Source of the DNA: Alkalimarinus coralli
GTDB lineage: Bacteria; Pseudomonadota; Gammaproteobacteria; Pseudomonadales; Oleiphilaceae
Length of the DNA stretch: 64,000 nt
Direction of reading: 5' to 3'
Assembly: GCF_023650515.1 (NCBI RefSeq)
Contig: NZ_CP096016.1
Location: 1,388,001-1,452,000 of the forward strand
This document shows positions 7,478 through 22,717 of this stretch, one piece after another. The notes below the pieces were generated by a model. That model worked only from the letters and a program-made list of their open reading frames with translations, searched no databases and had not been told where the DNA came from. Positions within the stretch are counted from its first letter, which is position 1. Each line of letters opens with the position of its first letter. The translations under genes and the position numbers were made by a program.

Positions 7478-8329
7478 TTACCGCTCGGCAATGGCCCCTT
7501 TGCCTACGCCTTCAAATGCCTTGACTCTAAACTGACTGGTCGGATATTGAGCTTTCAATTGCTCTGAAATATGTGTTGCGATCCACTCAACAGTTGAATC
7601 GGTTTTGATTATATACACCTGGCGGGAGGGTATTATCAGTTCAAAGTCACCTTGAATGGCAGAGTAGGCAAAATGGGTATGGGGGTGCCCATTGATTAAC
7701 GGGTTACCTGCAATATCACTCTCTGTTCCGATGTAAATGTCTTCAAAGATGCTAGCCCACTGCTTTTCAAGGTCATGGGCTGGCTTACCATCTCTATATA
7801 TATTGATTGTGGAGCGGTGGCCGTGTGCAATGCGCTGGCAATTACCCTTATGTTTTTTAAGTCCGTGACTGTAGTGGTAGAACTCACCCTTAATAACCTC
7901 TTCCCTTAATTGAATGCAAATGCCTTTCACGTTGGAGGGGAGCTGATGAAGTATTCTATCGCACAAATAAGCAGATATGTTCTCTTTACTAATCTCTACA
8001 TCTTTTATTTGGGTAAGGGATTCCAATGGCGAATGATGAATAATTTGCTCGCCGCTAGGCGCGTTGTACACAACCTTGGCAAGGGTGCCCTGTGTGTTGA
8101 TGCTAATGCTTTGATGAGCTGCCGGAACAACAAATTTATGATCGACTTCATGGTCGATGATGTTTTTAATTTTCTTTTTTACATCACCAAAATCAAACAG
8201 CATACCTTGTTCGTCCAGGTCGCCTTCCAACTCTATGTCAACGATCCAGCTCTCGCCTAAAATCCCTCTTTCGGTATGCAGGTATGAAAAATCAATTACG
8301 GTCAGGTTGTTTACAAAGAGCTGATTCAT
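7478..8329 (-). CDS. two-domain 6-carboxytetrahydropterin synthase-like protein
   Basis: 283 residues holding two 6-pyruvoyl-tetrahydropterin synthase (QueD) folds in tandem. The C-terminal copy (about 150-283) has the QueD-type active site: zinc-ligand region YHYSH, NCQRIAHGH with the catalytic cysteine and two His ligands, a later TDSTVEWIATHI, and FEGVGKGAIAE with the terminal Glu. The N-terminal copy (about 1-115: FSYLHTERGILGESWIVDIELEG) keeps the fold but lacks CxxxHGH. Known single-domain QueD makes a queuosine/7-deazaguanine precursor, so this doubled form is likely a relative of uncertain substrate. It is divergent from the UbiA-like gene. Confidence 0.75.
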   Translation of the reverse strand: MNQLFVNNLTVIDFSYLHTERGILGESWIVDIELEGDLDEQGMLFDFGDVKKKIKNIIDHEVDHKFVVPAAHQSISINTQGTLAKVVYNAPSGEQIIHHSPLESLTQIKDVEISKENISAYLCDRILHQLPSNVKGICIQLREEVIKGEFYHYSHGLKKHKGNCQRIAHGHRSTINIYRDGKPAHDLEKQWASIFEDIYIGTESDIAGNPLINGHPHTHFAYSAIQGDFELIIPSRQVYIIKTDSTVEWIATHISEQLKAQYPTSQFRVKAFEGVGKGAIAER

Positions 8330-8676: not shown

Positions 8677-9660
8677 GTGAACCCTAATTCAGTAACGATT
8701 GAATCTCCCTTAGCGACTAGAATCAAAGCATGGATGGATGAACGTTTCCCATTTGTAAATGCACTGCTTTTTTTTATTTTGTATCTGACTGCTGCGGTAA
8801 TCGCTCGCTATTCCTCAACCGAAGGTGCTGTTTCGTTAGCTCTCATTGATATTGTAGGGTGCCTGATCACTTGGAGCTTTTTTTTGGTGGTTCGTATATT
8901 TGATGAGCACAAAGACTATGAGCTTGATGTGCTTAACCATCCACAGCGGGTACTGCAAAGTGGCTTGATCACCCTAAACCACCTGAAAGGGTTGGCCCTG
9001 GCAGCAATTGCGCTGCAAATCACTTATTCACTTATTCTTGACTCTGTGCAGACAACCAATGCCAGTGCAGTGGGGCCGACAATGTTTGCCTGGTTAATGG
9101 TTTTTGGTTGGACATGTTTAATGGGGAAGGAATTTTTCTGCGGTGAATGGCTTGAGAAGCGTCTAACGTTGTATGCCTTTTCTCATATGATCGTGATGTT
9201 TTTTATCGTGTGGTGGCTGGTTCAAATGGGACGCCCCAGCGCGCCTTTAAGCAATGAAGTTATTGCGTTGGGTTTTCTGGCATTTATTAGTGGTTTTGCT
9301 TTTGAAATCACACGAAAAACCAGAGGGCCAGAAGAAGAACGAGATACGGTTGACTCATACTCAAAAATATTTGGTGCAAAAGGCGCTGCTATATTGGTTA
9401 TTTCATTAGTGTTGGGAATGATTGCTACTCAATGCTTCATCATTCTTCAGGTAGGAGGCGCTGGGTACTGGCCTGCATTAGTTGTTCTGGCGATTGTGTT
9501 GCTGTTATGCCTAAAAAGCTTATTAAGTTTTATTGCTGAGCCGACAGAAAAAGGGCGGGAGAAGAATGAGATGGCTGTCGCTCTTGGTACGTTGTTAGGG
9601 TATTTGGTGGTATTGGTCAGTGTATTTGTCAACCGGGGGATTACGTTAACCCTCATGTAA
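8677..9660 (+). CDS. UbiA-superfamily prenyltransferase-like membrane protein
   Basis: 327-residue polytopic membrane protein with about eight or nine hydrophobic helices. The first aspartate-rich motif of the UbiA superfamily is present in variant form, RIFDEHKDYELD (about 73-84), with D/E-x-x-D-x-x-x-D spacing. A second charged cytosolic loop, EITRKTRGPEEERDTVDSYSK (about 210-230), stands where the second motif belongs. UbiA enzymes transfer prenyl chains to aromatic or glyceryl-phosphate acceptors; archaeal digeranylgeranylglyceryl phosphate synthase is one. GTG 8677 is supported by AAAGGA eight bases upstream. It is the first gene of a seven-gene plus-strand run. Acceptor and donor are unknown. 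Confidence 0.72.
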   Translation: MNPNSVTIESPLATRIKAWMDERFPFVNALLFFILYLTAAVIARYSSTEGAVSLALIDIVGCLITWSFFLVVRIFDEHKDYELDVLNHPQRVLQSGLITLNHLKGLALAAIALQITYSLILDSVQTTNASAVGPTMFAWLMVFGWTCLMGKEFFCGEWLEKRLTLYAFSHMIVMFFIVWWLVQMGRPSAPLSNEVIALGFLAFISGFAFEITRKTRGPEEERDTVDSYSKIFGAKGAAILVISLVLGMIATQCFIILQVGGAGYWPALVVLAIVLLLCLKSLLSFIAEPTEKGREKNEMAVALGTLLGYLVVLVSVFVNRGITLTLM

Positions 9661-9777
9661 GTGTTGCTGCTTTCACTATTACTTGTAGAAGAGATGCTAT
9701 GCACATTTTTAATTAATGCCGAGCGTCTTAACGTTTCGATTATGTTGTTTTATATAAATAGAAGGAGTAGCGATTAA

Positions 9778-12561
9778 ATGCTACCTAATACTCAAGAATT
9801 TGGGCGATATATTAACAATACTGCCCACCAGGGAATGCTCTCTTTTACGAAGTCAGGAGAGGTTCTGTCTGGCGATATTTTAACCATTACTCCTAACGGT
9901 CTAACATTCATTGTTGAATCATCTGAATATTTTGATGAATCCTGCCTTGGCCTGTTCCTTGAAGACCCCAAAGTATTTATTGATGGCGAATTTCTATGCG
10001 ATACCCACCTTAGCATTGCCAGTATCACTCCCCAAACGGTAAGCGCGGAAAATGGACGCTTACAACTGTTTGAAGTAAAAACTGTTGTTCCAGAGACTGA
10101 TAATGCCAGCTGCCTTTGGCAGGTTCTTTATCAAATACATCGAGAGAGTAGCAAGGCCGATGATCAACCTCTTTACGATGCCCTTACACTGCCTAAGGTA
10201 CCTGCTCGCGGAGTCTATAGCGAAGAAGCGAGATTGGAACGTTTGGCTTTTATCAGGGAAAACACGGATGCAGAGCTAACGGCTGTAGAGAAAAACAGCT
10301 TTGATGCCAATAAATTGATGAGTAACATTGAGGCGTTTATTGGCTCTGTAGAAGTCCCCGTGGGGGTAGCTGGTCCTCTTTTAATCAATGGCCAAAACGT
10401 GAATGGCCTGATGTATGCCCCAATGGCTACATCGGAAGGTGCGTTAGTGGCTTCTGCAACGCGAGGAGCCACGGTGCTTTCGCGGTGCGGTGGTGTAAAT
10501 ACCAAGGTGCTGGGGCAGAGAATGCTGCGTGTACCACTGTTTGTATTGAGCAACATGCAGGATGCTCTATTTTTCGCTAACTGGATAGAAAGTCACTTCA
10601 ACGAAATTAAAGAACAGACTAAGCGTTTCTCCAACTATGCTGACTTGAAAGAGGTGGAACCTCAAGTATTTGGCAAGGCCGTGCATGTTCATTTTGTGTA
10701 TGAAACAGGCGATGCGGCTGGCCAAAATATGACGACTACATGTACCTGGCAAGCATGTCTTTGGGTCATGGAGCAAATGAAGCAATTTGAATCACTAAAG
10801 TTTGAAAACTTTATGATTGAGGCCAACCTGTCGAACGACAAAAAAGTCACCTATCAATCGTTTCTTAAGGGGCGCGGGGTTAAGGTGATGGCTGAGTGCA
10901 TACTGCCTGCCGAACATACCGAACGCGTACTCAAAGTGACGCCCAAACAGCTGGTTGAAGCCTACCAGAACTTTGTTACTGGAAGTATCGGTGCCGGTAT
11001 GGTTGGAATTAACATCAACATAGCCAACGTTATTGGGGCGATGTTTACAGCGACCGGGCAAGATATTGCCTGCGTTCATGAATCATCGATAGGGCAGTTT
11101 CATTTGGAATTGACCGATGACGGTCGTTCAGTGTACGCAAGCATGATCCTCCCTAGCCTGGTAATTGGAACAGTGGGCGGCGGAACAAGTCTTACCCAGC
11201 AACGCGAATGCCTGGAGCTGTTGGGGTGTGCAGGGCCTGGGAAAGCGGCGCGTCTTGCAGAAATTATTTGTGGCTACTGTCTTGCACTTGATTTGTCGAC
11301 GTTATCAGCTATTGCTAGTGGCCAGTTCGCAAGTGCTCACGAGCGCTTGGGTCGAAACAGACCCGTAGATACACTCAAGCAAGGCGACTTAAATCCGCAG
11401 TTTTTCCAGCGTATCATGCGCAAGCAATTTGAAAGTGAACACCTCACTGTCGGAACTGCAGAGCCGATTGTTCACGAATCCAAAGGCAGCAGTATTATCA
11501 CTGAATTAACTGCCCATAAGGTGAACAAAATACTGGGGCATTTTCCTTATTCTCTGTCTCTGCAAAATGATCTGGGGAAGGAAGAAACAAAGGATGTAAT
11601 GGTAAAAGTTAAGCCTTTGGATGCAGAGGTCATCATGATGCTAAATAGCATGGCTGCAATGTGTGACCCACGTTTAGCGCAGGAATATAATCGATATAAA
11701 GATCAGCTAGGATTCCGTGGATGTCACCAGCGGGAGCTTGCGGTGATGACTCAAAAAGACCCTCGTTTTACGCGAAACTCCCCTTTGGTTTATGGTGTTT
11801 ACGAAAATGAGGAGCGTGAGGCGTACCTGATTGTAGAAGAGTTGATGACGGATATGGTTCTGATGGACAGTGCAGATGACGTGACTGGCTGGACAAATGA
11901 GCATATTAAAGCCGCAATCAAAGGCATTTCAGAAGTTCATAGTATTTGGTTTGGCCGTGAGGAAGAGCTTCGCCAGCAGCCGTGGATTATCGACGCACCG
12001 ACTAAGGAGTCGAGAGTTGAGAAGCAGCGTCTTTGGGAAATGCTCGGTGTTCATGCAAGAGAAGAGTTTCCCGAGTGGTTTTCTGATGATGACCTGGTGC
12101 GTTACCGCGACTTGGTTAAGGCGATGCCTAAACTGTGGGATCGCTTGGAAAGTATGCCAAAAACACTTATCCACAACGATTTCAACCCGCGTAATATAGC
12201 GTTCAGAAAAACGTCAGACGGGTTGAGGTTATGCGCTTACGATTGGGAATTGGCGACTGTTCACCTGCCTCAATATGATGTGGCAGAGTTGATGGCGTTT
12301 ACACTGACCGGAGATTTCACTCGAGCGGATATCGATGAACTTGTTGAGTATCATCGACTAGAGCTTGAGAAAAACACCGGTGTAGAGATTGATGCAGCGG
12401 GCTGGAGAGACGGGTTTAGCCTTTGTATTGTTGATTTGTTAGTCACCCGAATGTCGTTGTATGCGATGGCTCATACCTTTAGACATTATAAGTTTATGGA
12501 ACGCGTGCACAGCTCATTTAGGCGTCTCTTGGAAATAGAGATTGAGCGGGCTTGTAAATAG
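9778..12561 (+). CDS. HMG-CoA reductase-like protein fused to an APH/choline-kinase-type domain
   Basis: 927 residues in three parts. Residues 1-110 are beta-rich and vaguely PilZ-like. Residues about 130-560 are an HMG-CoA reductase with the class I motif set: PMATSEGALVAS (catalytic Glu near 220), GDAAGQNM (311-318), SNDKK (Lys near 355), GQD (427-429), GTVGGGT (464-470) and SAHERLGRNR (His near 521). Residues about 590-927 form an aminoglycoside-phosphotransferase/choline-kinase fold with HNDFNPRN (799-806) and DWE (822-824) as catalytic and metal-binding motifs. The reductase normally makes mevalonate from HMG-CoA with NADPH. All its catalytic residues survive, but specificity is not proven. 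AAGGAG lies ten bases upstream of ATG. I know of no described enzyme with this architecture. Confidence 0.8.
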   Translation: MLPNTQEFGRYINNTAHQGMLSFTKSGEVLSGDILTITPNGLTFIVESSEYFDESCLGLFLEDPKVFIDGEFLCDTHLSIASITPQTVSAENGRLQLFEVKTVVPETDNASCLWQVLYQIHRESSKADDQPLYDALTLPKVPARGVYSEEARLERLAFIRENTDAELTAVEKNSFDANKLMSNIEAFIGSVEVPVGVAGPLLINGQNVNGLMYAPMATSEGALVASATRGATVLSRCGGVNTKVLGQRMLRVPLFVLSNMQDALFFANWIESHFNEIKEQTKRFSNYADLKEVEPQVFGKAVHVHFVYETGDAAGQNMTTTCTWQACLWVMEQMKQFESLKFENFMIEANLSNDKKVTYQSFLKGRGVKVMAECILPAEHTERVLKVTPKQLVEAYQNFVTGSIGAGMVGININIANVIGAMFTATGQDIACVHESSIGQFHLELTDDGRSVYASMILPSLVIGTVGGGTSLTQQRECLELLGCAGPGKAARLAEIICGYCLALDLSTLSAIASGQFASAHERLGRNRPVDTLKQGDLNPQFFQRIMRKQFESEHLTVGTAEPIVHESKGSSIITELTAHKVNKILGHFPYSLSLQNDLGKEETKDVMVKVKPLDAEVIMMLNSMAAMCDPRLAQEYNRYKDQLGFRGCHQRELAVMTQKDPRFTRNSPLVYGVYENEEREAYLIVEELMTDMVLMDSADDVTGWTNEHIKAAIKGISEVHSIWFGREEELRQQPWIIDAPTKESRVEKQRLWEMLGVHAREEFPEWFSDDDLVRYRDLVKAMPKLWDRLESMPKTLIHNDFNPRNIAFRKTSDGLRLCAYDWELATVHLPQYDVAELMAFTLTGDFTRADIDELVEYHRLELEKNTGVEIDAAGWRDGFSLCIVDLLVTRMSLYAMAHTFRHYKFMERVHSSFRRLLEIEIERACK

Positions 12562-12692
12562 CGAGCAATAAACGCGACTACCTTGGATGCTTCAAGTTCG
12601 GGGTATTAATGTATTAATGATAAAAGCTAATGCCAAATTCCGGCCATAGGTCGCGGCTTGGCTTTAACAGAAACGGTTTGGGTAACGATAAT

Positions 12693-15425
12693 ATGACAGT
12701 TCAAAGTGAAGGTTTAGGCTATGTCCTTTCCTCAAAAGGAGCGTCAAGCTTTAGCGAAAACACACTAGGCGGGAAAGCCAGCCAGATGGCGTGGTTAACC
12801 CGTAACGGGTTTAATGTACCCGAGTGGTTTGTTATCACTACGGAAGCTTTTAACGGCTTTGTATCTGAAAACAAATTGGGTGACTGGATAGATGAGAAGC
12901 TAAAAACATTATCTGATCAAAATGTCGGTCCAGTATCTGAAGAGATTCGGAACAAACTTTTATCCGGGGTGTTGCCATGCGCCCTGGAAGAGCAAATTAG
13001 CGAGTCGCTCGCGACAATGCCTAATGGAGTCGAAGATTTCTATGCAGTGCGTTCTTCGGTAGTTGGCGAAGATGCAGCATCCGCTTCATTTGCCGGCCAA
13101 ATGGACTCAGAGTTATTTCAAAAGGGTATTGATGCAATAACCCACTCGGTAAAAAGTGTTTTTGCCAGCGCATTTACTGAGCGTGCGCTGATCTATCGTT
13201 TACACCATAATATTGATTACAGAAATATAAAAGCTGCTGTTATTGTCCAGCGAATGATATTCGGGTCAGTTTCCGGGGTAATGTTTACCGCTCACCCCAT
13301 TAATGGTCGTCGTGACCAGGGATTAATTTCTGCGTGTTATGGGGCCGGAGAAGGTATTGTGTCCGGGCTTTGCAGTACCGATGAATATACCGCCTCTCTC
13401 GATGCCAGAGAGGTCGAATCTACTATTAATGAAAAAGATATTCAGTTGGTATTTGACGAGGAAAGGGGATTAGGGACGATAGAAAAGCCTGTTCCCGAAG
13501 CGTTAAAAAATAAGGCGTGTCTCACCAACGAGCAAGTGAAGCAGCTTATACGTACAGGCAAAAGCATCGCGGAAGCGCGGTTGTTTCCACAAGACATCGA
13601 GTGGACTGTTGAAAGTGGCGTGATCTATATTCTTCAAACACGACCTGTCACCTCTATGCCGCCACCAGAAAAGCCTAAAGGGGATAGAATTGTATGGGAT
13701 AACTCAAACATCCAGGAAAGCTACTGTGGGGTAACAACACCTCTGACATTTAGTTTTGCCAATCGTGCCTACGCAACTGTGTATGAACAAACGATGCGGT
13801 TGATGGGAATCTCTGAAAAAGAGATTCAGAAAAATCAAGGTATGTTACGTAATATGTTGGGCCTCATAAAAGGACGAGTGTACTACAACATCAACAACTG
13901 GTATCGAGGGTTGCTGTTTCTTCCATCATTTGGCACTAATAAAGAAGCGATGGAAAGAATGATGGGGTTACAAGACCCTGTTGATATGATCCAGGACACA
14001 CATCTTTCCGCTTTTCAGAAGTTAAAAAAACTGCCCGGCATGTTGAAAGCTCTGATCATTCTGCTGAGCCATTTTGTAAGAATGGGCAGCTTGGTTGATC
14101 AGTTCAAGGCGATGTTTCAGCGGGAGTACAATGCGATTCCACGTACTCAGCTGCATACATTGGAAATGGCTGAACTGATGGCGTTGACCAAGCAGCTGGA
14201 TAACAACCTGCTGAATCGCTGGACAACCCCTATTGTTAATGACTTTTACGTGATGATTTATAACGGAAAAGTGAATAGCTGTCTCACAAAGGTTGGCATT
14301 GAAAACGCCGAAGTTGTGCAAAACAACTTGCTGTCGGGCGAAGAAGGAATAGAAAGCACAGAGCCGACTAAAATGCTCCTTCGTATGTGTAGCTTTGTTC
14401 GGTCTGATAAGTCGCTTAAAGCACTTATTAACGGCACTGAAAATCAATATCTTCTTGATGCTATTCAGGTTCAGTCTCCAGAGTTTTATCTTCAATGTCT
14501 TGAGTATATCGAGCTGTACGGTGATCGAACGATTGGTGAGTTGAAGCTTGAATCTGTGAGCCTTCGCCAAGACCCGTCGTTTATGTTTGCAGTACTGAAA
14601 AACTTCTTAAGCCGGGAAGACCTGAGCGAAGAAACCCTTTCCAGTAACGAAACGGCGTTCAGGCAGGAGGCAGAGCAAGAGGCCTTCGGCAAGATTGAAC
14701 AACAGTTAGGTGCTAAAAAACTGGCCACATTTAAGGTTCATCTGGCGAAGCTGCGTGATGCGATTAAACATCGTGAAAATATGCGTCTGGCAAGAACCCG
14801 TATGTTCGGACTTTATCGTGATATCTATATTGAGATAGGTCGTCAGCTTCAAATGGATAAGCAGCTTGATGAAGCGAGAGATATTCTGTATCTCACCGTT
14901 GAAGAACTTGATGCCTATATGGAAGGCAGGAGCGTATCTTCCCTTAATGACCTTGCACAACTGCGCAAAAAAGAGTTTGCCTCATACGAGCAGGAAGAAC
15001 TCCCTCATCACTTTAGTACCTGGGGGCCTGTTTATCATCACAATAGTTATGAATACAAAGGCGGTCACGAAGCTCTGGATGCCGATAGTGACGAGCTATC
15101 GGGGCTTGGTTGTTACCCTGGAATTGTGGAGCAACCGGTAAGGCTGATATTTTCGCCAGAAGATGAGCTTAGCCTGGATGGACAAATATTGTGCACCGTT
15201 AGGACTGATCCAGGTTGGGCGCCACTATTCCCAACGGCGGGTGGGTTGTTGGTCGAGCGCGGCTCAACACTTTCTCATTCTGCGGTTGTCGCGAGAGAGC
15301 TGGGTATTCCGGCTATCGTTAATATTCCTGGTATTACCAAAATTATCAACGATGGCGAGCGAGTAAAAATGGATGGTGCTAAGGGCACTATACAAAGGTT
15401 AGATACAACAACTGAGACAGTTTAA
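12693..15425 (+). CDS. PEP synthase/rifampin phosphotransferase-like dikinase
   Basis: 910 residues from ATG 12693; an ATG at 12630 would add 21 low-complexity residues without a better ribosome site. The N-terminal ATP-grasp domain shows LGGKASQMAWL, YAVRSSVVGEDA and the closing ILQTRPVTS. A long unique middle part (about 330-800) follows. The C-terminal swivelling domain contains GSTLSHSAVVARELGIPA with the phosphorylatable histidine (near 862). This order (ATP domain, substrate domain, His domain) is that of rifampin phosphotransferase. It is not that of PEP synthase, whose PEP barrel is missing here. It should move ATP's beta-phosphate to an unknown small molecule. Its stop overlaps the next start (TAATG). 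Confidence 0.78.
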   Translation: MTVQSEGLGYVLSSKGASSFSENTLGGKASQMAWLTRNGFNVPEWFVITTEAFNGFVSENKLGDWIDEKLKTLSDQNVGPVSEEIRNKLLSGVLPCALEEQISESLATMPNGVEDFYAVRSSVVGEDAASASFAGQMDSELFQKGIDAITHSVKSVFASAFTERALIYRLHHNIDYRNIKAAVIVQRMIFGSVSGVMFTAHPINGRRDQGLISACYGAGEGIVSGLCSTDEYTASLDAREVESTINEKDIQLVFDEERGLGTIEKPVPEALKNKACLTNEQVKQLIRTGKSIAEARLFPQDIEWTVESGVIYILQTRPVTSMPPPEKPKGDRIVWDNSNIQESYCGVTTPLTFSFANRAYATVYEQTMRLMGISEKEIQKNQGMLRNMLGLIKGRVYYNINNWYRGLLFLPSFGTNKEAMERMMGLQDPVDMIQDTHLSAFQKLKKLPGMLKALIILLSHFVRMGSLVDQFKAMFQREYNAIPRTQLHTLEMAELMALTKQLDNNLLNRWTTPIVNDFYVMIYNGKVNSCLTKVGIENAEVVQNNLLSGEEGIESTEPTKMLLRMCSFVRSDKSLKALINGTENQYLLDAIQVQSPEFYLQCLEYIELYGDRTIGELKLESVSLRQDPSFMFAVLKNFLSREDLSEETLSSNETAFRQEAEQEAFGKIEQQLGAKKLATFKVHLAKLRDAIKHRENMRLARTRMFGLYRDIYIEIGRQLQMDKQLDEARDILYLTVEELDAYMEGRSVSSLNDLAQLRKKEFASYEQEELPHHFSTWGPVYHHNSYEYKGGHEALDADSDELSGLGCYPGIVEQPVRLIFSPEDELSLDGQILCTVRTDPGWAPLFPTAGGLLVERGSTLSHSAVVARELGIPAIVNIPGITKIINDGERVKMDGAKGTIQRLDTTTETV

Positions 15426-16534
15426 TGAGTGAATGGAATACAGCCAGCCAACTGCCAGCGTCCTTTTTCAGCATTGCGGAAAAAGTCTATGCGTCAGATG
15501 ACTTCTGGATAAAGGAAAGTGAACCCTATATACGGACACTATTCTCGACCGAGAATAGTTTCTTTGGTAGTGGCAAAGCGTGGGTTGATACTGAAAAAAA
15601 TTGTGCTCGCCTCGCAGGATTTTATAATCCGGATCAATTAATAGACGGTAAGCGAGCTGCGTACTTTGGCTTTTGGGAGTGTGATAATCAACTGGAAGCT
15701 AATCAGGCGCTTTTCGAACGTTTTGAGAGGTGGGCCAGAGCATGTGGTGCAGATGTGATTTACGGCCCAATAAATTTTAACACGTTTGGCTTATATCGCA
15801 TTAGAATGAGCCATCATGAAAATGGTTACTTTCCTGGTGAACCGTATAACCCCAGCTATTATCCAGAATTGATGGAGAAGCTAGGGTATGGTGTCAGTAA
15901 ACGTTTCTATAGCTGGTTTGGGCGGCTGGACAATCGTGCAGAGAAGTCTGCGCCACTGATGTCAAAAGAGGTGGCCAAACTGGAGCAGCAAGGTATTAAA
16001 TTTAGTCGCCTTACCCCAGAGTACTGGTTGAACCATCTACCGGAAATCTTTCTTAATGTAGATGAGATCTTTAAAGATAACTTTGCCTATAGCGGAATTA
16101 CATTTGAAGCTTTTGAAAAGGCCTTTGGCGAAGGCTTTGCTTATCGCTTTTGTCCAAAGGCTTCTGTATTGGCAACGGATGCAGAAGGTAACATCGCAGG
16201 TTTTTTTGTTGCCTTCCCAGATTACTCCCCCTTATTAAAGCAATCTTCACCAAAGAAAGTGGAAGCGAGCCAAATACGCTACAACGATCATTTTAAACTT
16301 TTAGAACATCCTAAAGTATTGGGTAAAAGCGGTGGTGTTAGTCCTGCCTACAGGAAAAGTGGGCTGTTCTCGGTCATGAGCTATCTGCTGACACAGTGGT
16401 CTGAAGCTAGCTATGAGCTAGGTGGTGCAACGTTAGTACGAGAAGACAACCCTTCTGCACGAGTAGGGCGGTTATTTTTCTCACAACCAGGGGACTGGTC
16501 ACATGAGTATGCGTTATTTTCGAAGACGCTATAA
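15425..16534 (+). CDS. GNAT-superfamily-like acyltransferase (YghO-like)
   Basis: 369 residues, about the size of tandem GNAT-fold proteins such as YghO. The acyl-CoA-binding loop region is suggested by the later GKSGGVSPAYRKSGLFSVMSYLL followed by ATLVREDNPSARVGRLF. The early part holds ADVIYGPINFNTFGLYRI and GYFPGEPYNPSYYPELMEKLGY, typical of this family. A donor and acceptor cannot be named. Translation is coupled to the PEP-dikinase gene through a one-base stop/start overlap (TAATG), which argues for joint action. Confidence 0.6.
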   Translation: MSEWNTASQLPASFFSIAEKVYASDDFWIKESEPYIRTLFSTENSFFGSGKAWVDTEKNCARLAGFYNPDQLIDGKRAAYFGFWECDNQLEANQALFERFERWARACGADVIYGPINFNTFGLYRIRMSHHENGYFPGEPYNPSYYPELMEKLGYGVSKRFYSWFGRLDNRAEKSAPLMSKEVAKLEQQGIKFSRLTPEYWLNHLPEIFLNVDEIFKDNFAYSGITFEAFEKAFGEGFAYRFCPKASVLATDAEGNIAGFFVAFPDYSPLLKQSSPKKVEASQIRYNDHFKLLEHPKVLGKSGGVSPAYRKSGLFSVMSYLLTQWSEASYELGGATLVREDNPSARVGRLFFSQPGDWSHEYALFSKTL

Positions 16535-16579
16535 GGTTAGCGTTAGATGTATAGCAATGCAGGTTTATAAGGAGTCGTA

Positions 16580-18268
16580 ATGCACGCGATTGTTCCATCT
16601 TTGGTACCTGAATCCGGAAATTTCGCTGACCTTATTCTCCGGCATGCAAAGCGCCAGCCTTTTGTTACTGCGCTGAATATTCCGCATGAGGTGCGAGCGC
16701 AAAAAATCACTCATTTTGAAGAGATCTCTTTTGGAGAGCTTGGAGATAGAGTAGCCAAACTTAGATCTCTGCTTAATCGAGAGGGGTTAAAAAAGCAGGA
16801 TCGAGTAGTGGTGATGTTTAAGCCCTGCATCAACCTTTATGCACTGGTTGTCGCGCTTTTGGCTGAAGGAATGGTCCCTGTATTTATAGATACAGGTATG
16901 GGGGCTAAAAAAATGCTTAATGCATTAGAGGAGAGCGATGCCAGTATGATTGTCGCAACCTCTTCTCTATTACGTTTCCGTTGGCTATTTCCTGCGTTTT
17001 GGGGAAGGCGTTGCATTTCGGCTGATAGCCCGTTGTTAGGAATAAAGACACTCGACTTATTACTTGAAGGTGTTACGCCTTCCAGTTTGGAGGAAATGCC
17101 TTGTGCTGAAATCAAACAGGGTAATAGAGGCTTAATATCCTTTACCTCTGGGAGTACCGGCAGGCCAAAAGGTGCTGACCGGACTCACGATAGCTTGATA
17201 CAGCAACACATTGCCATTAGGGATCACTGGCAGGATTCAGCAGAAGACATTGATATGACTTCGCTGCCGGTAGTTGTATTGCATAACCTTTGCTGCGGAA
17301 TGCCTAGTGTTTTGCCTGCTATAGAATTTTCGGCTCCCGGAAGTGCTGATGGCTATTTGGTATTACGCCAGCTGCTGGAGTCAAATGTTACTCGATTGAG
17401 TGGGGCCCCTGCATTCATAGAGAAGGTTGCAGATGCGGCATTGGCGAACGCATCTTCATCAACGGTGGCGTTGTCACTTAACAGTATTAGTCTAGGCGGA
17501 GCTCCCGTGACTGCGAAGCTATCGAGAAAACTTAATGAGGCATTTCCAGGAGCAGTCAGCCGCGTTGTCTATGGTTCTACAGAAGCTGAGCCCATTGCCA
17601 GTGTTGAAACAGCAAAGGTGGCTTTAGAGCAACATGAAGGTTACCTGGTTGGTATGCCTGCACATCAATCCGAGGTGTTGATCGTTAAGTTACCGAAAGA
17701 TCCAGGCCAGATCACTGACGATACGTTGGCACCTTATTATTGTGTTCAGGGTGAAGTCGGGGAGCTTGTCGTTAAGGGTAAGCATGTGCTTAAAGGGTAT
17801 GTTGATAACCCTGAAGCGACTAAAGAGAACAAAATTCATTGTGCTGATGGCAGCGTCTGGCATAGAACAGGGGACTTAGCCAAGCTTGATGAGAAAGGGA
17901 GCATTTGGTTGATGGGCCGAATGTCCGACTCCATACATTTTAATGGAAAACCGGTATTTACCTACATCATTGAAAGTAAAGTTGATGCCATTCCAGGGGT
18001 AAAACGGTCTGCCCTGATTCAAAATACACCTGACAACAAGCCTGTTTTGGTCTTTGAGCGTGAGCAAGTTCAGCAGGTAGAACGTTACTCAACGATTGAT
18101 ATATCAACTCAAATAGAACATGCAGAGATCAAACTAAAACATCTGGTTATGGGATTATTGATTGATGAAGGTTTAGTGGGAACGGGTATTGTCTGCCTCG
18201 ATAAGTTACCTGTAGACAGTCGCCATAACAGTAAAATAGATCGGGCAAAGCTGAGAAAAATGCTATGA
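16580..18268 (+). CDS. AMP-dependent acyl ligase, OleC-like
   Basis: 562-residue member of the ANL (acyl-CoA synthetase) superfamily. The phosphate loop FTSGSTGRPKGADRTH is at about 188-203, VYGSTEAEPIA is the A5 motif, and HRTGDLAKLDEKGSIWLMGR is the hinge motif. The C-terminal lysine region is DKLPVDSRHNSKIDRAKL. The stretch around LPVVVLHNLCCGMPSVLPA and the overall length resemble OleC-type enzymes, which activate fatty acids and can close beta-lactones. Activation of a carboxylic acid as an adenylate is very likely; the substrate is not known. AAGGAG lies shortly before ATG. The last codons overlap the next gene by four bases (ATGA). Confidence 0.8.
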   Translation: MHAIVPSLVPESGNFADLILRHAKRQPFVTALNIPHEVRAQKITHFEEISFGELGDRVAKLRSLLNREGLKKQDRVVVMFKPCINLYALVVALLAEGMVPVFIDTGMGAKKMLNALEESDASMIVATSSLLRFRWLFPAFWGRRCISADSPLLGIKTLDLLLEGVTPSSLEEMPCAEIKQGNRGLISFTSGSTGRPKGADRTHDSLIQQHIAIRDHWQDSAEDIDMTSLPVVVLHNLCCGMPSVLPAIEFSAPGSADGYLVLRQLLESNVTRLSGAPAFIEKVADAALANASSSTVALSLNSISLGGAPVTAKLSRKLNEAFPGAVSRVVYGSTEAEPIASVETAKVALEQHEGYLVGMPAHQSEVLIVKLPKDPGQITDDTLAPYYCVQGEVGELVVKGKHVLKGYVDNPEATKENKIHCADGSVWHRTGDLAKLDEKGSIWLMGRMSDSIHFNGKPVFTYIIESKVDAIPGVKRSALIQNTPDNKPVLVFEREQVQQVERYSTIDISTQIEHAEIKLKHLVMGLLIDEGLVGTGIVCLDKLPVDSRHNSKIDRAKLRKML

Positions 18269-18882
18269 AAAAGCCACTATTGATTGTGTCATTAAATCCC
18301 GTTGACTGGCTGACTTTAAGTGGCGTTTGGGTGGCAGCAGGAAGTTTGTGGTTTGCGTTTGAGCATCAAATTGCGTATGCACTTTCATTGCTCTATATCG
18401 CCATGTTGATTGATGCATTTGACGGAATTTTGGCCCGAAAACTTGGCTATGAAAGTGAATTCGGACGTTATCTTGATAGTTTTGTTGACGTGTTGGATTA
18501 CCTCATCGTGCCGGGTTTCATTCTCTATTTTTGGGGGTTCAACGGCGTCTTTGAAGGAATGCTGATCATACTGGTGTTGTGCTGCGGAATTTTGCGGCTG
18601 TCGGTGTTCAATCAGTCGGGTAATGTAAAAGATGAAAACGGGAACCTTGCGTACTTAGGTATGCCGGTATTTTGGTTGAATTTCATTTTGGGTGGTGCCT
18701 ACATACTCTCTTGGTTTATCGGTCTAGCCATCGTAATGGCTCTATTGTGCGTCATTTACCCGGTGGCCTGCTTCCTTATGATTTACAACGGGCCGTTTTT
18801 TAAATTTTCAAGTATCAATGTCATTGTAAGCCTGGTGTTTGGTGGTGCGTTGGTGTTTTTTCTGGCGGGTTTGTTTGGTTGA
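18265..18882 (+). CDS. CDP-alcohol phosphatidyltransferase (PssA/archaetidyl-transferase type)
   Basis: 205-residue membrane enzyme with about seven hydrophobic helices. It carries the complete CDP-alcohol phosphotransferase signature D-x2-D-G-x2-A-R-x8-G-x3-D-x3-D at about residues 50-75 (DAFDGILAR, then GRYLDSFVD). The family swaps CMP on a CDP-lipid for serine, inositol phosphate, glycerol phosphate or another alcohol. Size and layout fit type II phosphatidylserine synthase and archaetidylserine synthase. It starts inside the stop codon of the acyl ligase gene (ATGA), and a CDP-lipid synthase-like gene follows 61 bases later. That places activation and headgroup transfer side by side. Confidence 0.88.
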   Translation: MKKPLLIVSLNPVDWLTLSGVWVAAGSLWFAFEHQIAYALSLLYIAMLIDAFDGILARKLGYESEFGRYLDSFVDVLDYLIVPGFILYFWGFNGVFEGMLIILVLCCGILRLSVFNQSGNVKDENGNLAYLGMPVFWLNFILGGAYILSWFIGLAIVMALLCVIYPVACFLMIYNGPFFKFSSINVIVSLVFGGALVFFLAGLFG

Positions 18883-18943
18883 TTGTTCTGCCTATCAACA
18901 AACTGAACAATACCGACAAATATTTACTTTTTGAGATAATGTT

Positions 18944-19525
18944 TTGATAGATAGTATTAGTACGCTTAACTCCCCGACAATATACGAAAGCGCCATTGTT
19001 GCGCTGTGGCTAACGCTTCCAATTGTAATAGGCGGTGTTGCGCACATGTTCTTTGTCGCGAATGACTGGTTACCATCGCTGAAAGTACCGATAAACGAAG
19101 CGCTTTTTGGTAAGAACAAAACCTGGAGAGGTGTTGTTGTTATGCCCTTGGTAACGATTCCTGGCGCGCTTCTGTTAGGTATGTTGGGGGGCGTTCAACC
19201 TGGCTCGTTATCATCTTCATTACCTGATGTTTCGTTAACTCTGCTAGGCCTTTGTTTAGGGCTTGGCTATGTTATTTTGGAGCTGCCAAACTCCTACCTA
19301 AAAAGAAAGCTAGGGATTCCGCCTGGGGGCGCGCCAGATCAGGGAGCGTTCTGGTTTATCGCCATGGATCAACTGGACTCGGCAATCGGCTTTGCTATTG
19401 TCTATGCCTTGTTTTTTGACTTTCCAGCTGTGACTTATCTTCTTTTGCTTATTGAGTTTCCTTTTGTTGCGTTGCTGGTTAAGCGGGTTTTGTACTGGGT
19501 TCGTTTAAAAAAGTCTTACCTATAG
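18944..19525 (+). CDS. CDP-archaeol synthase-like (CarS/CdsA family) cytidylyltransferase
   Basis: 193-residue integral membrane protein with about five hydrophobic segments. It has FGKNKTWRGVVVMP (55-68), LPNSYLKRKLGIPPGG (114-129) and AMDQLDSAIG (140-149). GK-KTWRG, S-x2-KR-x2-GI and DQLD are the marks of archaeal CarS, and the C-terminal part is shared with bacterial CdsA. CarS uses CTP to activate unsaturated archaetidic acid; the substrate here is unknown. At about 190 residues it is CarS-sized rather than CdsA-sized (about 270-300). TTG 18944 is the likely start. It is the last gene of the cluster before an inverted-repeat element. Confidence 0.72.
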   Translation: MIDSISTLNSPTIYESAIVALWLTLPIVIGGVAHMFFVANDWLPSLKVPINEALFGKNKTWRGVVVMPLVTIPGALLLGMLGGVQPGSLSSSLPDVSLTLLGLCLGLGYVILELPNSYLKRKLGIPPGGAPDQGAFWFIAMDQLDSAIGFAIVYALFFDFPAVTYLLLLIEFPFVALLVKRVLYWVRLKKSYL

Positions 19526-19831: not shown

Positions 19832-22717
19832 TTGGTATTGATGGGGATTGAATTACTTATATTGTTTAAGGTCGGAACTGCCACGTTGTGGCTTTTTTTA
19901 GCCTTTATTTTCTTTAAATACTTCCTTAGTGCAAAATATCACCAGCCGGTTTTGTCGACCTTGTTTTTGCTAGTCGTTGCGCTCTGTTTTGTTCCTATTG
20001 TCTATACCATCAGTACCCATGAGTATTCTCTACAGCTAAACCTCCCAGTTGCGATTATGGGTGTGCTGGTTACGGCTATCGTACTTAGCCCCTCGATGCG
20101 TCGTGAAATTCGAAAACTGCTAAAGACTGGAAAAGAGGCTGTCAACCATGATGACTCAGGGCCAGTTGATGGGTTATTAGGTAGTATTTCAGCACACGCA
20201 TTCGAAGGAATATACGTGTTAGACCCAGAGTCGATGAGGTATCTAGATGTAAATACCTCAGGTGCTGCTGCATTGAAATATAACCGTGCTGATATGCTTG
20301 GTATGCATTTAAAAACAATCCATCCGAATGACTTTGGTATGGTTGAGCAACGGGTTAGAGAGACACTACAGACTGAGAAGCGCATTAAGTTTGAGGTAAA
20401 CGCGATGCGTTCAGACAATATTACGATTTTTGTAGAGGTTGCGTTAAAACACATTCATTTGAACGGGCGCTCAGTCGTATTGGCGGTGGGGCGAGACTTA
20501 ACCCGCCGCCAGCTGTCACAGCGAAAAATTAACCAACTTAATCAGCTATATCAACTGCTTACTCTATCAAACCGGGCCATTACGAGAATCAAAGATCGGC
20601 GCAAGCTCTCTGAAAAAATATGCGACCTTGCCGTAGGAGAGGGTGGTTTTTTGCTCGGCTGGATTGGCGACCTGGAAGATCGAAAGGTACTACCGATTTG
20701 CCATTCAGGGGTCAACGAAGGGTATGTAGAAAACTTAAACATCGACTTGGATATAGAGCGATATCTGGAGGGGCCAGTAGTAAGATCCATCAATGAACGC
20801 AAAGTTATCTTTATAAATAACCTGAGTAACGAAAAAGGTTTTCAATCTTTAAAAGTGGAAGCACTGAAAAGAGGGTTTAACTCCGTTGCATCAGTTCCAA
20901 TTTTTGTTGGACAAGACGTTTGCTCTGTTCTGGTTATATACTCTTCACAAGAAAATATATTCAACACAAAGCTGGCTCAGTTATTGACGAACCTGTCGGA
21001 GGACTTGAGTTATGCATTTGGTAACATCAATGCTGAGCGCCTTCGCTTGGACGCCGAGAAAAGGCTTCGTTTACTTTCAAGTGTTGTTGATCAGAGTACT
21101 GATGCCGTGACGATTATGAATGCCGGTGGGGGTATTGAATACGTTAACCCCCGCTTTACAACGCTTACTGGTTATACATTAGATGAAATAAAAGGGAAGT
21201 CTCCGTCAGTTTTGTGCAGTAGCAAAGGGGAGTCAGAGAAATTTCTAAAGGTATTTAATGACCTGAATAATGGTAGAAAGTGGAAGGGCGAATTTTTAAA
21301 CCGGAAGAAGGGTGGCGAAGAGTATTGGTCTATGGATACTATTTCGCCAATAAAGGATGACAGTGGTGCTATTACTCAATATGTGTCAACCTCAGAGGAC
21401 TACTCAGCGTTAAGGCAGGCTCAAGACAAGATCGAACAGCTCGCCTTTTATGATAGCCTCACAGGCTTACCTAACCGGCGTTTGTTACATGACAGATTGA
21501 TACAGGCAATAAGCCTGTCGGCCAAAAATTACTCTTATGTTGCCGTTCTCATGCTGGATATCGATAAGTTTAAAACAATAAATGATTCATTGGGTCACAC
21601 AGCAGGGGATGAGTTGATTAAAAACATTTCATTGCTGCTGACCGATTATGTAGGGCATGGGGATACGGTTGCTCGGCTAGGAGCAGACGAATTTATTGTT
21701 GTATTATCGAATGTTCGGGATATGAAAGAGGTTGTTTATTTTGCTGAGAAACTGTTGGAAAAAACAAGACAGCCGATGGACGTTCAAGGAAATACCGTTT
21801 CTGTAACAGCAAGCATTGGTGTCAGCCTTCACCCGATGGATACCGTTGATGGAGGGGATCTGCTTAGGTGTGCCGACTTGGCCATGTATCATGCAAAAGC
21901 AGAAGGGAGAAATAACTTTCAGTTTTATACTCGAGAAATGAATGATAGAGCGCTTGAGCAACTTGATTTAGAGAAGAGGCTAAAGGTTGCGATACAGGAC
22001 CGTTCATTTGAGCTTTATTACCAACCCCAGATTGATATGAATTCGGGCAAAGTAAAAGGCGTTGAGGCGCTTATTCGGTGGATCGATGATGGACAATACA
22101 TACCTCCAGATAAGTTTATTCCGGTTGCTGAAGAGAGTGGCTTGATGGACCAAATTGGTGAGTGGGTTATCAAGCAGGCAATCAGTGATGCCGAGCGATT
22201 GAACGATCAGTTTGCAGATCAAATAAATGTTGCCATTAACCTTTCAGCGAGCCAGTTTCGCGAGTCGGATAAATTAATTGAGCTTATCACCAGCCAGCTC
22301 AAAGAGACTGGTCTTAAGCCTGGTAATGTAGAGTTAGAGTTGACTGAAAGCATGCTGATTGGCGATCTGGAATCGGTTATCAGTACGCTAGACGCTTTTA
22401 GAGCGTTAGGTATAACGTTAGCAATTGATGATTTCGGTACAGGGTATTCATCGCTCAGTTATCTAAAAAACCTACCGATAGACACATTGAAGATTGATCG
22501 GTCGTTTATTAAAGATATTGGTATTGACGCGAGCGATGCGGCGATAACGGTTGCTATTATAACGCTCGCTAATGAACTAAATATGTCGGTATTGGCTGAA
22601 GGGGTAGAAACTGAGGGACAGATGCTGTTCCTTGAAGGGCATGGGTGTAGTGCTTATCAGGGGTACTATTATAGTAAGCCGCTACCGCTAACTAAGCTGA
22701 TTGATCTGCTAAGCTGA
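19832..22717 (+). CDS. membrane PAS-GAF-PAS-GGDEF-EAL cyclic-di-GMP signalling protein
   Basis: 961 residues. Three hydrophobic helices (1-85) are followed by a PAS domain (about 115-235), a GAF domain (about 250-400), a second PAS domain (about 415-530), GGDEF (about 535-700) and EAL (about 715-955). The cyclase signature reads GADEF (617-621) instead of GGDEF, so cyclase activity is doubtful. The phosphodiesterase site looks complete: EAL at 745-747, INLSASQF, LTES, DDFGTGYSSL, LKID and EGVET. It most likely degrades c-di-GMP in response to a redox or ligand signal. TTG 19832 or ATG 19841 may be the start. A shared terminator separates it from the convergent receiver gene. Confidence 0.92.
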   Translation: MVLMGIELLILFKVGTATLWLFLAFIFFKYFLSAKYHQPVLSTLFLLVVALCFVPIVYTISTHEYSLQLNLPVAIMGVLVTAIVLSPSMRREIRKLLKTGKEAVNHDDSGPVDGLLGSISAHAFEGIYVLDPESMRYLDVNTSGAAALKYNRADMLGMHLKTIHPNDFGMVEQRVRETLQTEKRIKFEVNAMRSDNITIFVEVALKHIHLNGRSVVLAVGRDLTRRQLSQRKINQLNQLYQLLTLSNRAITRIKDRRKLSEKICDLAVGEGGFLLGWIGDLEDRKVLPICHSGVNEGYVENLNIDLDIERYLEGPVVRSINERKVIFINNLSNEKGFQSLKVEALKRGFNSVASVPIFVGQDVCSVLVIYSSQENIFNTKLAQLLTNLSEDLSYAFGNINAERLRLDAEKRLRLLSSVVDQSTDAVTIMNAGGGIEYVNPRFTTLTGYTLDEIKGKSPSVLCSSKGESEKFLKVFNDLNNGRKWKGEFLNRKKGGEEYWSMDTISPIKDDSGAITQYVSTSEDYSALRQAQDKIEQLAFYDSLTGLPNRRLLHDRLIQAISLSAKNYSYVAVLMLDIDKFKTINDSLGHTAGDELIKNISLLLTDYVGHGDTVARLGADEFIVVLSNVRDMKEVVYFAEKLLEKTRQPMDVQGNTVSVTASIGVSLHPMDTVDGGDLLRCADLAMYHAKAEGRNNFQFYTREMNDRALEQLDLEKRLKVAIQDRSFELYYQPQIDMNSGKVKGVEALIRWIDDGQYIPPDKFIPVAEESGLMDQIGEWVIKQAISDAERLNDQFADQINVAINLSASQFRESDKLIELITSQLKETGLKPGNVELELTESMLIGDLESVISTLDAFRALGITLAIDDFGTGYSSLSYLKNLPIDTLKIDRSFIKDIGIDASDAAITVAIITLANELNMSVLAEGVETEGQMLFLEGHGCSAYQGYYYSKPLPLTKLIDLLS

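Follow-up and report, generated by a model that had tools for sequence, protein, structure and literature searches.

Gene content of the cluster

The stretch considered here (the window) comprises 64,000 nucleotides from the genome of Alkalimarinus coralli, a single contig of 4.83 Mb (NZ_CP096016.1, positions 1,388,001 to 1,452,000). It carries at 8677-19525, on the plus strand, a cluster of seven intact open reading frames (ORFs), listed in Table 1, for which we tentatively propose a role in making an unusual polar lipid. The genes overlap at two junctions (by 1 and 4 bases) and are separated at the other four by 117, 68, 45, and 61 bases. A first-pass annotation made from the DNA letters had named the same families, and its description of the run is confirmed: six of the proteins match Pfam families (the UbiA-like protein among them just below its cut-off), and the seventh, the GNAT-like protein, is recognized by profile. 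The gammaproteobacterial host it supposed fits the nearest relative locus, L012, on a contig of Hahellaceae bacterium BB19.

Table 1. Genes of the cluster, in window coordinates
Gene product	Coordinates	Strand	Size and family evidence
UbiA-superfamily transferase	8677..9660	+	327 aa; Pfam UbiA 31.3 bits (cut-off 34.2)
Class I HMG-CoA-reductase-like/APH-type kinase fusion	9778..12561	+	927 aa; Pfam HMG-CoA_red 387, APH 39.7 bits
Phosphohistidine dikinase	12630..15425	+	Pfam PPDK_N 269, PEP-utilizers 74 bits
GNAT-like protein	15425..16534	+	369 aa; kin of YghO-type N-acyltransferases
AMP-forming acyl ligase, OleC-like (PRK09274)	16580..18268	+	Pfam AMP-binding 144 bits
CDP-alcohol phosphotransferase, closest to serine-type enzymes	18265..18882	+	Pfam CDP-OH_P_transf 55 bits
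CarS-like protein, presumed CTP:lipid-phosphate cytidylyltransferase	18944..19525	+	Pfam CarS-like 36.1 bits (over cut-off 22)

Cluster and remaining window agree in GC content (45.0% and 44.9%). Scans for promoters and terminators did no better on the sequence than on shuffled versions of it (14 versus 18.5 and 14 versus 11.2, respectively).

Conservation of the cluster

Six other genomes (G003, G020, G112, G128, G531, and G538) carry all seven genes in an identical order and on a single strand, with protein identities to the window ranging from 38% (the GNAT-like protein of L022) to 85% (the CDP-alcohol phosphotransferase of L012). The co-occurrence of the seven genes therefore exceeds chance, and the scattering in relatives that the first-pass annotation had named as telling against it is not seen. 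One of the loci, L014, has its CarS match (by tblastn) in a stretch where ORF calling gave no ORF of its own. Relative to L012, pN/pS lies between 0.12 and 0.28 over all seven genes and is 0.09 for the adjoining gltX, values to be read in the light of saturated dS in seven of the eight comparisons.

The cluster is nonetheless patchily distributed. When the 163 genomes of the host's own family were searched with the 927-aa fusion protein, 5, that of the window included, had it at full length, and 5 more had a lone reductase of this type (3-hydroxy-3-methylglutaryl-CoA, or HMG-CoA, reductase). A scan of named genomes gave two loci, L021 (on the same contig as L012) and L022. All seven genes are present in G531, an Alcanivoracaceae metagenome-assembled genome from the named-genome collection; of the 46 genomes of its family, two have the fusion, and it was this search that yielded G538.

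Broader searches did not reveal a wide spread of the same cluster, an idea that was dropped. A profile of the GNAT-like protein found 33 places in 30 of 369 genomes of the class at E<=1e-5, but scores fell from 622 bits for the window's own protein to 95 for the next. The short flanks of 29 of the places outside the host (L024-L052) were screened by tblastn, which showed further cluster genes at L033, L041, L048, L049, and L052; wider stretches were read at these five and at two of the best-scoring others (L024 and L025). A profile of the CarS-like protein found 4 of the 369 genomes (the host, G401, G195, and G395) and, at the level of the phylum, 2 of 398: the host and G932 (30.6 bits). The G932 match was set aside, as its ORF lies between uppS- and dxr-like ORFs and reads by eye as cdsA.

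Catalytic residues and family placement

In the fusion, the reductase occupies residues ~150-530 and the APH-type kinase ~600-925. They are preceded by an N-terminal domain of ~135 aa (window 9778-10190; ~110-140 aa in strict type I clusters, type I being the kind found in the window). This domain is poorly conserved, has no Pfam match even at E 10, and is missing or unrelated in the variant locus L071. The reductase has the fold and the catalytic Glu, Lys, Asp, and His of class I HMG-CoA reductases: E185, K355, D429, and H521 are kept in 9 of 9 fusions and in 3 of 3 reductases of a sister cluster (type II, marked by a DUF3419 protein and described below). The H-N-D....N and D residues of the kinase are likewise found in 9 of 9.

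The residues that would meet the substrate are another matter. In the numbering of the human enzyme, the position of Ser684 is occupied by Glu in all 12 cluster reductases (and also in two lone reductases), and that of His752 by Asn in the nine type I fusions and by His in type II. The segment around Lys735 has no conserved basic residue in the nine fusions; type II has an Arg nearby. Because these positions have diverged, the sequences suggest that the type I reductase acts on an acyl substrate other than HMG-CoA.

The UbiA-like protein keeps the first Asp-rich motif in a D/E form (D76 E77 D80 D84). The second Asp-rich motif of these enzymes binds the diphosphate, and it is gone: all 13 aligned cluster copies, that of the window included, read ExxRK versus ExxKD in digeranylgeranylglyceryl phosphate (DGGGP) synthase, the alignment placing RKTRGPEEE-type sequences opposite KDFEDMEGD. 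The protein scores 222.7 bits against PRK05951 (cut-off 239), and its sole match among solved chains is DGGGP synthase (E 9e-5). The dikinase, which may truly start at Met 22, has the PPDK_N domain, a middle region, and the C-terminal His domain, with H883 in 14 of 14 copies. It falls in NCBI family PRK06241.2-4, named phosphoenolpyruvate (PEP) synthase (1281 bits, over the cut-off of 1063), and scores below the cut-offs against PigC (364 bits) and Rph (351 of 999).

The ligase has its P-loop and K552 in 13 of 13 copies and scores 454 bits against PRK09274 (cut-off 478) and 214 of 850 against OleC. The CDP-alcohol phosphotransferase motif (D50, D53 G54 A57 R58 G67 D71 D75) is intact in 9 of 9, with 76.7 bits of 240 for archaetidylserine synthase and 72.9 of 107 for pssA. 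The CarS-like protein reaches 38.5 of the 148 bits of the CDP-archaeol synthase equivalog and matches the structure of that enzyme (5guf) weakly, at E 0.65. Since the catalytic residues are invariant in the aligned rows, the enzymes look active.

The 369-aa GNAT-like protein has no Pfam or NCBIfam match, but its profile retrieves GNAT-type relatives, and its counterpart in the type II locus L084 (42 bits between the two) exceeds the cut-off for Pfam Acetyltransf_1. Against solved structures the profile gave chance-like matches alone (E 0.12 and worse); the AlphaFold model has a pLDDT of 72 and a pTM of 0.70. Its best match outside the clusters is in L086 (95 bits, E 3e-27 by profile; blastp starting from the L086 sequence, 81-84 bits); a 1114-aa protein combining ligase, carrier, and aminotransferase parts lies beside it there, as does an epimerase-like ORF. 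L086 may be read as a serine-palmitoyltransferase-type locus of the kind that makes sphingolipids. A paper on rhodobacterial sphingolipids names yghO and CC_1154 as genes for acyl-CoA (ceramide-type) N-acyltransferases (PMC9386255), and it is this, with the homology to the L086 protein, that makes N-acylation a plausible role for the cluster GNAT. The likeness to ceramide synthases is drawn by way of the L086 protein rather than from the enzymes of Caulobacter and E. coli BL21. Serine palmitoyltransferase is not among the seven genes, a result that covers neither their flanks nor the genome at large.

A sister cluster and other variants

The type II cluster is found in five other genomes: complete in three, split by a plasmid origin in one, and cut by a contig end in one. 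In L083, L084, and L085 the order is reductase, UbiA, dikinase, DUF3419 protein, a hydrophobic protein of 430-440 aa, GNAT, and AMP ligase, so that the DUF3419 and hydrophobic proteins stand in place of the CarS-like protein, the CDP-alcohol phosphotransferase, and the APH kinase. The same set lies on a plasmid of the alphaproteobacterium Roseinatronobacter sp. S2, where the reductase straddles the point at which the circular record begins, its two ends being matched separately. L082 lies at a contig end, and what it shows is the ligase, the GNAT, and a portion of the hydrophobic protein.

The DUF3419 protein scores 243.8 bits for a Pfam family labeled only as of unknown function, which we take to be the BtaA family. 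BtaA enzymes attach an amino-acid headgroup to a lipid alcohol. The hydrophobic protein may, going by a motif, be of the phytol/dolichol-kinase type. When plasmids were searched with it, Roseinatronobacter alone was matched. DUF92 was tried as its family and could not be confirmed: one of four copies matched weakly (E 0.0064, 16.3 bits, cut-off 27.5), none of the 398 Pseudomonadota genomes had a match over the cut-off, and the lone weak match, on a 3.7-kb contig, had no adjoining cluster gene.

Trees of the reductase group the type I fusions and the type II reductases apart from lone bacterial reductases (support 97/94), and one branch separates type I from type II in the trees of the reductase, the UbiA-like protein (88/98), and the dikinase (100/99). 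We read this placement as one ancestral core that may have taken up two exchangeable headgroup modules. For the reductase tree, three short rows were dropped, L070 and L078 (a split gene) were left out, and the frame-shifted L065 is an artefact; in the UbiA tree, with its long L071 and L072 rows, most branches are unstarred.

Other loci depart further. L071 (in G401) has the reductase-kinase fusion, a single 400-aa protein joining the CDP-alcohol phosphotransferase to CarS, a formyltransferase, a fusion of an alpha/beta-hydrolase with the AMP ligase, UbiA, and the dikinase. The hydrolase part found no match among solved chains, and in a plasmid search with the phosphotransferase-CarS fusion, the best 20 of 30 records matched the phosphotransferase half only. 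L072 (in G195) has UbiA, GNAT, CarS, the CDP-alcohol phosphotransferase, two dikinases, and a 961-aa protein, with an ICMT-like methyltransferase adjoining. The first half of the 961-aa protein (L072:14031-16916) is a class III aminotransferase (304 bits against the PigE model, under the cut-off), and its second half has no Pfam match. In L073 (G395), CarS is the sole cluster gene on a 5-kb contig. On a plasmid of Streptomyces sp. NBC_01435 (L053:18209-22331), a reductase-kinase fusion (41% identity over 85%) comes directly after a GH3-family enzyme, and UbiA, dikinase, GNAT, CDP-alcohol phosphotransferase, and CarS find no match in the 42 kb read. Several AMP-binding matches lie in the same 42 kb.

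Five of the seven complete type I copies (L013, L014, L015, L022, and L074) have an MMPL-type gene just upstream. It was recognized by Pfam in L015 and L022 and by tblastn in the other three (33-90% identity to those two), and the L015 protein also matches HAE3/HpnN families of resistance-nodulation-division (RND) exporters. A LolA-like gene is present in L013-L015, by Pfam in L015 and at 72-79% identity in the other two.

A proposed pathway

These features lead us to favor, with rather less than even confidence, the view that the seven genes are devoted to making an unusual polar lipid whose headgroup is an amino acid, by a route distinct from that to archaeal lipids. The OleC-like ligase would activate a lipophilic carboxylic acid, the descendant of HMG-CoA reductase would reduce the thioester to a primary alcohol, and the fused APH kinase would phosphorylate that alcohol. 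CarS would then convert the lipid phosphate to a CDP-lipid, and the CDP-alcohol phosphotransferase would exchange CMP for a small headgroup, most likely serine, whose amine the GNAT, as a relative of bacterial ceramide synthase, might acylate to provide a second chain. The apolar part may be assembled or altered by the UbiA-like transferase and the dikinase ahead of headgroup attachment, and perhaps the RND (MMPL-type) exporter moves the product outward. The scheme is built on gene content, conservation, catalytic residues, fusions, the swapping of modules, and the lack of a mevalonate or geranylgeranylglyceryl phosphate (GGGP) route; from these we infer the substrates, the order of the steps, and the lipid nature of the product. 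It has the merit of assigning to every enzyme the chemistry usual for its family, and it is favored because both fusions, reductase-kinase (in nine proteins) and phosphotransferase-CarS (in L071), join what would be consecutive steps.

The first-pass annotation had proposed an unusual phospholipid, perhaps isoprenoid. The conserved set, with its apparent CDP-lipid, phosphodiester-headgroup, and acyltransferase steps, is in keeping with the phospholipid; the archaeal-type isoprenoid does not survive, for reasons given in the next section. A better fit is its alternative, in which ligase, reductase, and kinase convert an acid to an alcohol phosphate: reductase and kinase form one protein, and the Streptomyces plasmid places such a fusion beside a GH3 enzyme.

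Several observations weigh against the polar-lipid scheme. Its main weakness is that it gives the UbiA-like protein and the dikinase no definite place in the sequence of steps. The CDP-alcohol phosphotransferase, CarS, ligase, and UbiA all fall below NCBI family cut-offs, and the hydrophobic protein of type II has no firm family. L071 has a formyltransferase and no GNAT match, and L072 has no reductase or ligase within the 20 kb read, so the scheme is not universal. No relative of the exporter proteins was found at E 1e-5 in the window, in L012, L071, or L072, or in the type II loci read. The joining of type I to type II in the reductase tree drew a warning from the program that it rests on long branches and may be false. 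Finally, HMG-CoA may be available in type I hosts, and the reductase could still make mevalonate, a point taken up below.

A more ambitious form of the proposal, possible but doubtful, is that Proteobacteria possess a headgroup-modular lipid pathway, in which a shared core receives either a CarS/CDP-alcohol module or a BtaA-type module. The core would consist of the reductase descendant acting from thioester to alcohol, UbiA with a new donor site (ExxRK in place of the second Asp-rich motif), the dikinase, the OleC-like ligase, and the GNAT resembling ceramide synthase. The headgroups would be a phospho-amino-acid in the one case and homoserine-like in the other, and the product would be a class of polar lipid unseen so far.

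Alternative explanations

The presence of UbiA-like, HMG-CoA-reductase-like, CarS-like, and archaetidylserine-synthase-like proteins is what suggested an archaeal-type isoprenoid ether lipid built on glycerol-1-phosphate. We now think this highly improbable and the reading close to refuted. GGGP synthase (PF01884) is over its cut-off in none of six cluster genomes, the host's own included (G003 has a sub-threshold fragment of 48 positions and 22.3 bits), and HMG-CoA synthase (PF08540) in none of 13 genomes with type I, type II, or variant clusters; the latter matched in 4 of 14 controls. A single GHMP kinase per genome, in an open frame of 283-338 aa, was found in six of six and read as IspE. 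The first-pass annotation had noted that the window lacks GGGP synthase and the rest of the mevalonate pathway; as far as was tested, this is true of the whole genome. The altered UbiA motif and the poor match of CarS to structure point the same way. In the FCB group, pairs of GGGP and DGGGP synthases are described as marking archaeal lipids in bacteria (PMC7852524); in the present cluster the former enzyme is absent and the latter has no canonical representative.

It is unlikely, though less so, that HMG-CoA from the breakdown of leucine or terpenes is reduced to mevalonate, phosphorylated by the APH kinase, and built as phosphomevalonate into a lipid with a mevalonate backbone. The catalytic residues intact in 12 of 12 reductases would permit this, and the type II enzymes keep the His at the His752 position and an Arg near that of Lys735. 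HMG-CoA lyase, taken here as the mark of leucine breakdown, is over its cut-off in 8 of 12 genomes, namely all seven with complete type I clusters and the type II genome G246. HMG-CoA is thus possible in the host of the window, and it is for this reason that the explanation is retained. Against it stand the lack of HMG-CoA synthase in 13 of 13 genomes, the diverged positions in the nine fusions with Glu in place of Ser684 in all 12, and the failure of HMG-CoA lyase to reach its cut-off in G401, G195, G452, and G473. G473 is complete, carries the sister cluster, and has neither synthase nor a lyase over the cut-off; its reductase therefore has no evident source of HMG-CoA. Alternatively, the acid may become an isoprenoid or 2-enoyl alcohol that two kinases raise to the diphosphate, UbiA then forming an ether with lysophosphatidate and the CarS/CDP-alcohol or BtaA-type enzymes adding the headgroup to an otherwise normal diradylglycerol. 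Every variant bearing UbiA does have two proteins that are kinases or presumed kinases (APH and dikinase in type I and L071, hydrophobic protein and dikinase in type II, and two dikinases in L072), but the motif that would bind the diphosphate is lacking in 13 of 13 UbiA copies, and the one family considered for the hydrophobic protein, DUF92, was not confirmed. This route, too, seems to us improbable. Rather less probable is that the product is not a membrane lipid at all but a diffusible secondary metabolite, phosphorylated and N-acylated. The patchy distribution, the plasmid-borne copies in Roseinatronobacter and Streptomyces, and the kinship of the dikinase to PigC, RedH, and rifampin phosphotransferase would accord with that; the MMPL-type and LolA-like genes beside some copies would not, nor would the action on lipids or prenyl chains of characterized UbiA, CDP-alcohol phosphotransferase, and CarS proteins. 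The matching GC content of cluster and window does not decide for or against such a metabolite.

Comparison with known systems

The cluster shares with the archaeal phospholipid pathway a pairing of CarS-like protein with CDP-alcohol phosphotransferase, a UbiA-superfamily transferase, and the fold of HMG-CoA reductase. It differs in lacking GGGP synthase and the mevalonate pathway, in its UbiA motif, and in its additional ligase, GNAT, dikinase, and kinase. The case is a warning that CarS, UbiA, and HMG-CoA reductase in a bacterial genome are not by themselves evidence of archaeal lipids. With btaA, the betaine-lipid gene, the link is the DUF3419 protein of the sister cluster, there combined with reductase, UbiA, dikinase, GNAT, and ligase; the window type has CarS and the CDP-alcohol phosphotransferase instead. 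The dikinase has the three-part layout of rifampin phosphotransferase and PigC but belongs to PRK06241.2-4 and is set in a lipid-type cluster. The ligase resembles OleC, and the fusion of ligase to alpha/beta-hydrolase in L071 recalls OleBC fusions, but the score for OleC is far under the cut-off, and the seven genes include neither OleA nor OleD. The rhodobacterial sphingolipid genes (aasR, acpR, spt, epi, and aca/yghO; PMC9386255) have in common with the cluster an AMP ligase and a YghO-related N-acyltransferase, but their serine palmitoyltransferase, acyl carrier protein, and epimerase have no counterpart among the seven.

Among the matches listed from the open-licence PMC literature, none describes the seven-gene combination in its title or abstract. 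The enzyme families are known; as far as we have seen, the combination and the two-module design have not been described. If the proposal is correct, some bacteria of the Hahellaceae and Alcanivoracaceae kind, and others, would have an unassigned class of membrane or surface lipid, and evolution would have diverted an HMG-CoA reductase from mevalonate synthesis to another use. A natural experiment would then be at hand in type I and type II, whose main difference is the headgroup module.

Neighboring genes and lone reductases

Just upstream of the cluster, window 7478-8329 encodes a 283-aa protein, two stretches of which match 6-pyruvoyl-tetrahydropterin synthase and which exceeds the size of a single domain; it adjoins the cluster in L012 as well. 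Just downstream, at 19832-22717, a 961-aa ORF reads as a signaling protein of the PAS/GGDEF/EAL type, found in the same position in L012/L021 with 57-61% identity.

Lone class I HMG-CoA reductases occur in the family of G531 at L075:8633-9889, L076:8551-9726, and L077:8987-10228, each beside an IscA/ErpA-like ORF; among the genomes of that family, HMG-CoA synthase was tested in G531 alone and is absent there. At L020:6738-10854 (G022, of the host's own family), a reductase lies near ORFs that by eye resemble GHMP kinases, and together they may form a genuine mevalonate pathway. The Alteromonas macleodii plasmid pBGP9 (L054:2406-9167) carries genes for a protein of the thermostable-hemolysin family, an AMP-binding protein, an iron-containing redox enzyme, and a short-chain dehydrogenase/reductase, and two genes past this set lies a lone HMG-CoA reductase.

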